The notes below the pieces were generated by a model. The model did not search any database. It saw only the letters and a list, made by a program, of their open reading frames with translations, and was not told the DNA's origin. The position numbers were made by a program, and so were the translations under genes. A stretch of DNA of 41,741 bases, from positions 1 through 41,741 of the IMG/VR virus record IMGVR_UViG_3300027782_003709, one strand, 5' to 3'. The stretch comes from a virus. Below are positions 9,552-27,092 of the stretch, one piece after another. Positions within the stretch are counted from its first letter, which is position 1; every line of letters starts with the position of its first letter.

Positions 9552-10004
9552 ATGAGCTATGAGAATCCTTGGAAATATCAAGGAAAGATTTTTGAATCTG
9601 AGGATATTCAAGACAATTTTGGATTTGTTTATCTTATTACAAATAAAATAAATTCAAAACAATATATTGGAAGAAAGTATTTTTGGCAATTTAGAACGCC
9701 AAAAGGTAAAAAAAGAAAAGTAAAATCTGAATCTGATTGGAAAAAGTATTATGGGTCTTGTCCAGAACTTAAAGAAGATATCATCAAGTATGGTAGAGAG
9801 AATTTTGTTAGAGTTATTCTCTCAATACATCAAACAAAAGGCAAAACTAATTATGAGGAAACAAGGCAACTCTTTGTCAACAACGTCCTTACAGAATCCC
9901 TTGACAACGGAGAACCAGCATTCTATAATAGCAATATCTTATCGAGGTACTTCAGAAAAGATTACTATGAATCAGACTCAAATGAGGAGAATGTGTCAAA
10001 ATAA
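9552..10004 (+). CDS. SegE-like GIY-YIG family protein
   Basis: 150 residues. Residues 24-45 carry the GIY-YIG signature in variant form (FGFVYLIT, then QYIGRKYFW), followed by a basic stretch and KKYYGSCPELKEDIIKYG, the pattern of SegE-like GIY-YIG proteins of T4-like phages. A glutamate (YEETRQLF, about residue 103) could be the metal ligand. A GIY-YIG nuclease would cut DNA and may help its own spread or genome recombination. The domain call is good. Activity is unknown. Confidence 0.8.
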   Translation: MSYENPWKYQGKIFESEDIQDNFGFVYLITNKINSKQYIGRKYFWQFRTPKGKKRKVKSESDWKKYYGSCPELKEDIIKYGRENFVRVILSIHQTKGKTNYEETRQLFVNNVLTESLDNGEPAFYNSNILSRYFRKDYYESDSNEENVSK

Positions 10005-11611: not shown

Positions 11612-11815
11612 ATGGAAAAGTTTACAGTAGAAGAATTTCAAACAGACTTTGATAATCTTCTTGATCGTGTAGAAGGTGGAGAGTCTTTTATTATTACATA
11701 TGAAGAAAAAGAAGTAGTAATAATGCCTGCACAAGACTATGACTGCATAGTAGATACTATAGAAGAAAATGACGACCTAATTCGAATACACACTGATCAT
11801 GAAGAAGGTTGTTAA
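11612..11815 (+). CDS. Phd/YefM-like antitoxin-type protein
   Basis: 67 residues. The N-terminus TVEEFQTDFDNLLDRVEGGESFIITYEEKEVVIMPAQDYD follows the Phd/YefM antitoxin fold: helix, then the strand pattern for DNA-binding dimerisation (..VEGGE..IIT....VV.MPA..YD). The tail is acidic, where such proteins bind their toxin. No RelE/Doc-type toxin gene is next to it. It may be a transcriptional autoregulator or an orphan antitoxin countering a host toxin. That role is inference. Confidence 0.65.
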   Translation: MEKFTVEEFQTDFDNLLDRVEGGESFIITYEEKEVVIMPAQDYDCIVDTIEENDDLIRIHTDHEEGC

Positions 11816-11823
11816 TTTTTTTT

Positions 11824-11894
11824 GGGAGTATAGCTTAATGGTAGAGCAGGCTCCTTATAAGGGCTGTGTCTGGGTTCAATTCCCAGTATTCCTA
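11824..11894 (+). tRNA. tRNA, probably Ile (anticodon UAU)
   Basis: Acceptor GGGAGTA pairs with TATTCCT (two G-U pairs), D-arm GCTT/GAGC, anticodon stem GGCTC/GGGCT, loop CTTATAA giving anticodon UAU (reads AUA), and T-arm CTGGG/CCCAG with loop TTCAATT. The CCA end is not encoded. AUA is frequent in an AT-rich phage and rarely has a U-starting anticodon in bacteria, which usually use modified CAU. Confidence 0.82.
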
Positions 11895-11916
11895 TTTGCT
11901 ATTTGCAAATAGCAAA
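11895..11916 (+). repeat. 22-nt perfect palindrome behind the tRNA
   Basis: TTTGCTATTTG followed immediately by its exact reverse complement, with no spacer. It begins on the base after the tRNA discriminator. It may be a tRNA 3' processing or stability hairpin, or a binding site for a dimeric protein. Confidence 0.8.
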
Positions 11917-12120
11917 TGCAAAAGTCACGGATGGACTTTAACAGTACTGGTCGGGAACCCCCTCGAAGTCATGGAGAGACTTAAAAAATACTGGTGGAGT
12001 CAATATGACCCTCATTAGGTTTCCAATTTCCTTAAAAAATTGGTGGTGCGGATGGAGGTTACTCCCGCCTGGTTTCTAATTTCCAGTTAAAAAATTAGTG
12101 GCGAGCCTGCAAACACGGAA
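11917..12120 (+). ncRNA. structured RNA region upstream of gmd, candidate wcaG-type element
   Basis: No coding frame is supported. Hairpins include AAAGTC/GACTTT (11921-11939), AAGTC/GACTT (11966-11982), CCAATTT/AAATTGG (12023-12043) and CTAATTT/AAATTAG (12076-12098). The last two are copies with a matched C-G to T-A change. Each is followed by GTGG or TGGTGG after an A-run, as is a third arm pairing CAGTA (11942-11946) with TACTG (11989-11993). The wcaG RNA motif is known from cyanophages before exopolysaccharide genes. Here the genes are gmd and fcl, so position fits, but I cannot match the consensus from memory. Confidence 0.45.
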
Positions 12121-12126
12121 TCTTAG

Positions 12127-12154
12127 GAGGGGTTTACAAAACCCCTCTTTTTTT
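12127..12154 (+). terminator. rho-independent terminator containing the gmd -35 box
   Basis: A 9-bp stem GAGGGGTTT/AAACCCCTC with a 3-base loop is followed by seven T residues. It ends transcription from the tRNA and RNA region. The right part is also promoter DNA for gmd. Confidence 0.9.
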
Positions 12155-12161
12155 GTATAAT
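12133..12161 (+). promoter_or_regulatory. sigma70-type early promoter for gmd operon
   Basis: TTTACA, a 17-base spacer, then TATAAT. The -35 box lies in the terminator stem-loop and the spacer contains its T-tract. It is 20 bases upstream of the gmd ATG, so the operon can be read by host polymerase early. Confidence 0.8.
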
Positions 12162-12181
12162 AATAGAAAAGTACTTTGTAT

Positions 12182-13183
12182 ATGAAAGTTGCGTTAATTA
12201 CTGGTATTACTGGACAAGATGGGTCTTACCTTGCTGAACTTCTTCTTGAAAAAGGATATGAAGTTCATGGTATTGTTCGTAGAAGTTCTCTTATTAATAC
12301 TGATAGGATTGATCACATTTACTCCCAATTAAAACTTCATTATGGAGATTTATCTGATGCTACTAATTTAATTAGAATTATTAAAGAAGTTCAACCAGAT
12401 GAAATTTATAATCTTGGTGCTCAAAGTCATGTAAAAGTTTCTTTTGAAATGCCTGAGTTTACTGGACAGGTTGATGGTCTTGGAACTCTTAGAATTTTAG
12501 AAGCAGTTAGGTTGCTTGGTTTGGAACATAAAACTAGAATCTATCAGGCATCTACATCAGAACTTTATGGATTGGTTCAGGAGATTCCTCAAAAAGAAAC
12601 TACCCCATTCTATCCAAGGTCTCCTTATGGAGTTGCTAAAATCTATGGATATTGGATTGTAAAGAACTATAGAGAATCCTATGGAATGCACGCAAGTTCT
12701 GGTATTTTGTTTAATCATGAATCACCAAGACGTGGTGAAACATTTGTAACTAGAAAGATTGTCCTTGGACTTTCTAATATTCAAAAAGGAAATCAAGATT
12801 GTCTTTATCTGGGTAATCTAAATGCAAAACGTGACTGGGGACATGCTAAGGATTTTGTTGAAGCAATGTGGTTAATGCTTCAACAAGATGAACCAGAAGA
12901 CTTTGTAATTGCTACTGGAAAACAATATTCAGTTAAAGATTTTGTTGAAGAAGCAGCACCTTATTTTGGAATGAAAATTGCTTGGGAAGGTGAGGGATTA
13001 AATGAAGTTGGTATTGATAAACTTACTAAAAAAACAGTCATCCAAGTCAATCCTAAATATTTTAGACCTGCTGAAGTAGAGACTTTGTTAGGTGATGCCT
13101 CTAAGGCAAAAGAAAAACTAGGTTGGATACCTAAAATTTCATTTAAAGAATTAGTTGAGGACATGTGTGTTTATGGACAGTGA
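12182..13183 (+). CDS. gmd: GDP-mannose 4,6-dehydratase
   Basis: 333 residues of an extended short-chain dehydrogenase. The NAD(P) motif TGITGQDG is at 7-14; STSELYG lies at 124-130, with the catalytic Thr/Ser-Glu; Y149 and K153 form the YxxxK pair. It converts GDP-D-mannose to GDP-4-keto-6-deoxymannose, the branch point for GDP-fucose, GDP-colitose and related sugars. The start is ATG 12182; a TTG six bases earlier is less likely. It is first in the operon and overlaps the next gene by 11 bases. The substrate must come from the host, as no manB/manC is seen. Confidence 0.95.
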
Positions 13184-21605: not shown

Positions 21606-21629
21606 GGGGGTTGACAAACCCCCTTTTTT
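21606..21629 (+). terminator. terminator after porin containing the hli -35 box
   Basis: GGGGGTT/AACCCCC with loop GACA and six T residues. The sequence TTGACA, which spans the end of the left arm and the loop, is also the -35 of the next promoter. Confidence 0.88.
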
Positions 21630-25868: not shown

Positions 25869-26012
25869 GATGTTAAGGAATCAAGACATTTCTTAATCTT
25901 CTGTAACCGAGATCATCAGAAGTAAAGCATCTCTCATACCTGCACTGGAGGGTGGTGTAGGATATACTGTACTTTTTCAGTTCCCCCTGAATTCATACTT
26001 ACCCTTTTACAA
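25869..26012 (+). ncRNA. structured psbA 5' leader, candidate PhotoRC-type RNA
   Basis: 144-base leader with two hairpins: CTTCTG/CAGAAG (25898-25922), and a longer one (25949-25988) built from AGGG/CCCT, GGA/TCC and ACTG/CAGT with an 8-base loop. PhotoRC motifs are known upstream of psbA in marine cyanobacteria and cyanophages, so position and form fit. No Shine-Dalgarno is visible at the ATG, so folding may decide translation. Confidence 0.5.
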
Positions 26013-27092
26013 ATGACTGCTACTATTGCTACACGCAATTCTACTAACCTCTGGGAATCTTTTTGCCAGTGGGTTACTTCTACAAACAACCGTCTCTATG
26101 TTGGTTGGTTTGGTGTTCTGATGATTCCAACGTTGCTTGCTGCAACTATTTGTTTCATCATTGCTTTTGTTGGTGCTCCTCCTGTGGACATTGATGGCAT
26201 TCGTGAACCTGTTTCTGGTTCATTAATGTATGGTAACAACATCATCTCTGGTGCTGTTGTTCCTTCTTCTAATGCTATTGGACTTCACTTCTATCCTATT
26301 TGGGAAGCTGCTTCTCTGGATGAATGGTTGTATAATGGTGGACCTTTCCAACTTGTTGTATTTCACTTCCTTATTGGCATCTACTCCTATATGGGTCGTG
26401 AATGGGAACTCTCTTACCGTTTAGGTATGCGTCCTTGGATTATGGTTGCTTACTCAGCACCTGTTGCTGCTGCATCTGCTGTATTCCTGGTCTATCCTTT
26501 TGGTCAAGGTTCTTTCTCTGATGCTATGCCTCTTGGCATTTCTGGTACTTTTAACTATATGCTTGTTTTCCAAGCTGAGCATAACATTCTGATGCACCCC
26601 TTCCATATGTTGGGTGTTGCTGGTGTCTTTGGTGGTTCATTGTTCTCTGCAATGCATGGTTCACTTGTAACCTCATCACTGGTTCGTGAAACTACTGAAA
26701 CTGAAAGTCAGAATTATGGTTATAAGTTTGGTCAAGAAGAAGAGACATACAACATTGTTGCTGCTCATGGATACTTTGGGAGACTTATCTTCCAATATGC
26801 TTCATTCAACAATAGTCGTTCACTGCACTTTTTCCTTGCTGCCTGGCCTGTTGTAGGCATTTGGTTTGCTGCACTTGGTGTTAGCACCATGGCATTCAAC
26901 CTGAATGGTTTCAACTTTAACCAGTCCCTGCTTGATAGTCAGAACAATGTCATCCCTACTTGGGCAGACATTCTGAACCGTGCTGGACTTGGGTTTGAGG
27001 TAATGCACGAAAGGAACGCACACAATTTTCCACTGGATCTTGCTGCTGCTGAGACAACTCAAGTTGCTCTAACTGCACCTTCTATTGGTTGA
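26013..27092 (+). CDS. psbA: photosystem II D1 protein
   Basis: 359 residues, full length, with the five membrane helices and conserved landmarks: [11 protein letters not shown] (a Gln at the D1:1/D1:2 marker), H in [11 protein letters not shown] for iron/chlorophyll binding, the plastoquinone pocket around [15 protein letters not shown], and the C-terminal processing site LDLA-A. It replaces the light-damaged host D1 during infection. It is intronless. Base use is close to a cyanobacterial gene. It has its own early and late promoters, terminator and structured leader. Confidence 0.99.

Follow-up and report, generated by a model that had tools for sequence, protein, structure and literature searches.

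An extended form of the cyanophage wcaG RNA ahead of gmd: a structured array that may form the 3' end of an upstream transcript

The window, i.e. the whole stretch of 41,741 nucleotides analysed here (IMG/VR virus record IMGVR_UViG_3300027782_003709), is a genome fragment from a T4-like cyanophage, with psbA (PF00124), a PhotoRC-II RNA, tRNA genes, a GIY-YIG endonuclease gene, and a sugar-nucleotide cluster led by gmd. The endonuclease gene (9552-10004) is of the SegE type (PF19835), and a Phd/YefM-like antitoxin gene (11612-11815) is found just 5' of a tRNA-Ile gene. A non-coding stretch spans from this tRNA gene to the ATG of gmd at 12182 and holds the RNA described here (Table 1). A palindrome, TTTGCTATTTGCAAATAGCAAA, is present at 11895-11917, between the tRNA gene and the array of RNA structures.

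Table 1. Positions in the window of the wcaG array and of the features on either side of it.
Feature	Position	Strand	Basis
tRNA-Ile (anticodon tat), directly 5' of the array	11823..11895	+	ARAGORN; Rfam tRNA 62.7 bits
5' unit 1: stem AGUC/GACU (11923-11926 with 11934-11937), loop ACGGAUG, loop-to-linker contact C11928-G11944, then CUGGUCGG	11923..11954	+	model R1 43.3 bits, E 3e-13
5' unit 2: stem AGUC/GACU (11967-11970 with 11978-11981), loop AUGGAGA, contact U11972-A11988, then CUGGUGGA	11967..11998	+	model R1 43.9 bits, E 2e-13
Small hairpin GUC-AAUAU-GAC, between the 5' units and wcaG	11999..12009	+	from letters; layout GAGTCA..TGACC in most homologues
wcaG RNA (RF01761), full length	12015..12112	+	cmscan 94.8 bits
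Pseudoknot a (probable): P1 GG (12018-12019)/CC (12030-12031), loop UUU, P2 CCAAUU (12023-12028)/AAUUGG (12038-12043)	12018..12043	+	covariation; P1 complementarity
Hairpin GGAG/CUCC, 3' of invariant GGUGGUGCGGAUGG	12054..12065	+	homologue alignment; also in Rfam consensus
Pseudoknot b: P1 CUGG (12069-12072)/CCAG (12083-12086), loop UUU, P2 CUAAUU (12076-12081)/AAUUAG (12093-12098), A-rich third loop	12069..12098	+	top-ranking covarying column pairs in the RNA
Intrinsic terminator: stem 12127-12135/12139-12147, U-tract 12148-12154	12127..12154	+	letters; terminators behind homologues
Promoter-like site overlapping the terminator: -35 TTTACA 12133-12138, 17 nt, -10 TATAAT 12156-12161	12133..12161	+	letters; composite behind homologues
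gmd, GDP-mannose 4,6-dehydratase, first in the sugar cluster	12182..13183	+	PF16363 E 6e-153

The feature at 11917-12120 is the known cyanophage RNA wcaG in an extended form, with extra units 5' of the part covered by RF01761. The Rfam model matches end to end (model positions 1-98 of 98, E 6e-17), and the score is far above the gathering score of 42 bits. A preliminary description, made from the sequence alone, had proposed a structured, covarying RNA ahead of gmd and had named wcaG as a candidate; the family was confirmed by the model, the structure by two-sided stem changes in 73 homologues, and the location by the match of the downstream gene to GDP_Man_Dehyd of Pfam. The description regarded the RNA as a candidate wcaG with unfamiliar repeated units. 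Added units do exist (at 11923 and 11967), but the GGTTTC repeats to which it pointed are the two halves of wcaG itself, and its 'third arm', although present, is actually two copies of another unit. The smaller hairpins that it mentioned were recovered as GGG/CCC near 11953-11960 and as the GUC/GAC and GGAG/CUCC hairpins of Table 1. The 3' limit of the feature is the terminator, slightly beyond 12120. The marine cyanophage context of the family is seen here as well, since homologues occur in Synechococcus phages and both psbA and PhotoRC-II are within the window.

Homologues were collected with exact DNA patterns from IMG/VR contigs and from annotated phage genomes, and 73 diverse sequences were aligned. 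The two halves of wcaG in the window are GGTTTCCAATTTCC...AAATTGG (12018-12043) and GGTTTCTAATTTCC...AAATTAG (12071-12098), and, as had been noticed earlier, the pair C12024-G12042 of the first copy is T12077-A12097 in the second. Taken alone, a single paired change within one sequence could be chance. Among the 73 sequences, however, the stems of both halves are paired in 100% of the alignment cells and show two-sided changes at 11 of their 12 pairs, including all 6 pairs of P2 in pseudoknot a. When both stems and the loop pairing of the second half are taken together, 99.8% of cells are paired and two-sided changes occur in 266 cells, compared with 70.2 in shuffles, which ignore that the homologues are related to one another; the covariation score is 0.636 against 0.239 and is lost when the partner is slid by 1-3 columns.

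Over the whole RNA, covariation is strongest at two column pairs that join the 4 nt ahead of UUU with the loop of the second half, and this loop pairing is found as CUGG/CCAG, CCUG/CAGG, CUAG/CUAG, and CCAG/CUGG. This pairing folds the second half into a compact H-type pseudoknot. In the first half there is an analogous, shorter loop pairing (GAG/CUC, AGG/CCU, UGG/CCA), for which three Watson-Crick pairs are possible in 58 of 87 distinct sequences, compared with 27.3 +- 4.1 when partners were dealt anew. The first half is thus probably a pseudoknot too, graded no higher because the alignment is unsteady in this part. These loop pairings set the RNA apart from the published motif only as far as the consensus structure line of Rfam is concerned, since that line is nested and cannot display pseudoknot pairs. 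Plain minimum free energy (MFE) folding was rejected as a source of structure: it did not recover the phylogenetic structure, and the z-score of 11896-12160, -2.05, is weak alone, although MFE folding cannot see pseudoknots.

In a homologue search with 11896-12180, phage matches covered positions 27-268 of the query and reached 5' past the Rfam model, so that the RNA of the window extends about 95 nt further 5' than the wcaG motif and includes two more units outside the model. Each unit is 32-34 nt long and is made up of a stem of 4-5 bp, a loop of 7 nt with GG in it, an A-rich linker, and CUGGUSG. In the window, a covariance model built for the unit found exactly the two places listed in Table 1, and the third best match scored 7.5 bits. 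Rfam scans of the window and of 11 phage loci gave no family matching the 5' units. Among 176 wcaG homologues with at least 500 nt of upstream sequence, 154 have one or two 5' units within 900 nt upstream.

Within the unit, position 2 of the loop covaries with a base of the linker located 3 nt before CUGG: 111 of the 113 distinct units have C-G or U-A at these two positions, and the control gave a mean of 64 and a maximum of 79. The same contact is present in 52 of the 53 units of an alignment for which the stem was used as a selection criterion. Therefore, it appears that the loop contacts the linker and that the fold is again pseudoknot-like. When units were selected without the stem, its positions 1-4 were paired in 88, 93, 82, and 73% of cases, compared with 67, 59, 69, and 53% in shuffles.

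In each of 17 complete phage genomes wcaG occupies a single locus, with one match in 15 and two adjoining matches in two, and nearly all strong matches to the unit in these genomes are beside wcaG. There are two exceptions. In S-RS29, a lone 5' unit is found right after tRNA-Leu and before a TTGACA-17-TATGAT site; in S-SCSM1, a unit is about 2 kb upstream of wcaG, with genes for a carbamoyltransferase and mannose-6-phosphate isomerase between them. Cargo of this kind varies by phage and also includes a small membrane protein and the MATKGTAAKS family. In six loci (L038, L060, L086, L181, L241, and L258) an SD-like GGAG lies in a unit hairpin (CTGGTCGGGAGCAAACCCCTTATG) just before a small ORF of the MSK...RYIGN family; this GGAG could control translation of the ORF.

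The array follows closely on the gene upstream of it. The distance between the end of the upstream ORF and the start of the first unit has a median of +1 nt, and in 111 of 146 cases the two are within 20 nt of each other or overlap. The small genes inside the array behave similarly, their stop codons lying 0-9 nt before the next unit in 27 of 69 cases and 10-30 nt before it in 31 of 69. An upstream gene family was seen in 104 loci by single-linkage clustering, which is rough and may chain. Read-through of the stop codon caused by a pseudoknot placed at it was considered and rejected, as the median extension of 16 codons is close to the 14 expected by chance.

Behind wcaG, an intrinsic terminator was called by motif in 122 of 148 distinct 120-nt stretches, compared with 0.3 per set in dinucleotide shuffles, and it starts at a median of 11 nt past the wcaG core. 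A promoter-like site, also a motif call (TTK-N3-N17-TANNAT), is found behind wcaG in 110/148 stretches, and in 99/148 the U-tract is within the promoter spacer, i.e. the -35 box is in the terminator hairpin. The -35 boxes are frequently TTGCAT, a poor match to the consensus, and a stricter promoter matrix gave 51 sites behind wcaG. The same promoter motif is present ahead of the array in just 4/140 cases. In the window, the -10 box ends about 20 nt before the ATG of gmd. Start codons of sugar genes are generally about 65-75 nt past the wcaG core, which leaves little room except for a terminator and a promoter. A second composite of this type (TTGGGGGTTGACAAACCCCCTTTTTTCATATATAAT) is present at 21611 in the window, where there is no wcaG; therefore, it appears to be a general element of these phages.

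The downstream gene is sugar-related in at least about 55% of homologues. Single-linkage clustering gave one spurious giant cluster here, and the genes were classed by motif instead: of 128, 25 are gmd, 33 GAGGFIG epimerases, and 11 cytidylyltransferases, with further sugar genes among the remainder. The association of wcaG with sugar genes is therefore real in this sample too, and a conserved genome position may be its simple cause.

The array usually lies flush with the upstream stop codon, promoter-like sites are rare ahead of it and common behind it, and a terminator usually follows, all of which argues against a 5' leader. Overall, the surroundings suggest the 3' end of an upstream transcript rather than the 5' leader of sugar genes, and we infer from the motifs that the upstream transcript carries the RNA. 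A proposed scheme can be described as follows. Transcription would enter from the upstream gene, here tRNA-Ile and the Phd-like antitoxin gene, cross a compact pseudoknot-like array made of two 5' units and the two RF01761 pseudoknots, and halt at the terminator directly 3' of it. The gmd gene would start from its own promoter, with the -35 box inside the terminator hairpin and the -10 box past the U-tract; since this promoter is placed in and after the terminator, normal gmd mRNA would not contain wcaG. The tightly folded tail may shield the upstream mRNA from exonucleases, and/or the array may be released as a stable phage RNA whose invariant unpaired segments (GGUGGUGCGGAUGG, UUU, and the A-rich loop) would bind a host factor. 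That the array is such a structured 3' end, as a protective tail and/or a released stable RNA, has in our judgement about an even chance of being right. The general claim is more tentative and we would sooner doubt it than accept it: that wcaG forms the 3' portion of a modular pseudoknot array which phages put behind genes as an mRNA 3' end of a new, structured type, usually fused to a terminator-promoter hybrid, and that its long-standing assignment as a riboswitch is wrong.

Several findings count against the 3'-end reading. The frequent sugar-related gene downstream is not required by a pure tail role, three loci (L021, L078, and L126) lack a terminator and have a coding start right behind the RNA, and several 5' units stand directly before a small ORF with an SD-like GGAG and are possible leaders. 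A literature search for transcript data on wcaG found none, the published Syn9 transcriptome lying outside its reach.

The published proposal (Weinberg et al. 2010, PMC2864571) is that wcaG (RF01761) is a leader of exopolysaccharide genes, based on its consistent upstream location, and later cyanophage papers restate this regulation without experiment. Acting on the sugar cluster as a riboswitch or attenuator, the RNA would sense a metabolite and thereby set passage through the terminator into gmd. The cyanophage origin and the adjoining sugar-nucleotide gene agree with the published motif, as do the downstream gene classes found here; the terminator directly behind a structured RNA would suit an attenuator, and strongly conserved unpaired segments are typical of ligand-binding RNAs. 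In the published description the RNA belongs to the 5' UTR of exopolysaccharide or high-light genes; gmd does follow here, but with a terminator and a promoter between it and the RNA said to regulate it. The array has no promoter of its own in front, and some wcaG RNAs are followed by tRNA or hli genes instead. No clear antiterminator pairing was found when terminator arms were compared with the upstream RNA, the arms pairing with their own upstream RNA over 7.77 nt, a marginal excess over the 7.59 +- 0.07 nt for arms from other loci. The GDP-sugar-sensing leader of gmd implied by the preliminary description fares poorly for the same reasons, with a terminator and a sigma70-like promoter intervening at 12127-12161, and the leader proposal as a whole appears doubtful. 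Less probable still is a trans-acting phage small RNA, a terminated 3' piece that would be processed off to pair with or sequester a host target; such a role would agree with the one locus match per genome in 15/17 phages, the defined 3' end, and the conservation of unpaired positions, but most of the conserved segments are inside compact folds.

The units might also flank variable small genes as a boundary element that aids homologous exchange between co-infecting phages. Different cargo genes do lie between units in different phages; however, compensatory changes reflect selection on RNA pairing, which a DNA site would not need, and exchange could be a by-product, which makes this explanation very improbable. 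Conservation of an expressed peptide can practically be dismissed. Hypothetical proteins are annotated over the RNA in Syn9 (gp208; L134 1927-2085), Syn1 (Syn1_206; L137 1235-1324), S-RSM4 (L135 1181-1294), and S-BM3 (L131 1241-1330), but all three frames of the window contain stops, core lengths are not multiples of three in a consistent way (30, 21, and 22 sequences in the three classes modulo 3), and no frame is open in most rows. These annotated proteins are probably not real genes.

Since 2010 wcaG has been listed as a candidate cis-regulatory riboswitch. If the RNA instead belongs to the upstream transcript as its tail, looking for a sugar ligand in connection with the downstream gene is misdirected. 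The wcaG family itself was already known; the 5' units absent from Rfam and the re-interpreted context are added here, and cultured phages, for example Syn9 or S-SM2, would allow direct tests of the array, the 5' units, and the terminator-promoter hybrid. In a scan of a genome collection with the wcaG pattern, the raw pattern matches, among those listed, were scattered over unrelated bacterial groups.

Other RNAs of this kind can be compared. The STAXI motif (RF01728) is described in PMC2864571 as a pseudoknot in two or three repeats, of unknown function, and so resembles the array; unlike it, STAXI is enterobacterial and lies near DNA-binding and antirestriction genes, and it had no Rfam match in the window at the gathering score, nor in 11800-12250 at E up to 5. 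PhotoRC-II, the other cyanophage RNA of the window (RF01717, 56.4 bits, 25884-25975), is ahead of psbA (26013-27092) and is unrelated to wcaG in model and position. The manA RNA (RF01745) is, like wcaG, a cyanophage RNA of unknown function that has been assigned to sugar genes, but it has a different model, which has no match in the window. In S-CREM1, a manA RNA (L130 1768-1982) directly abuts tRNA-Leu on one side and tRNA-Asn on the other, not far from wcaG; manA, too, may be an element linked to gene ends or to tRNAs.
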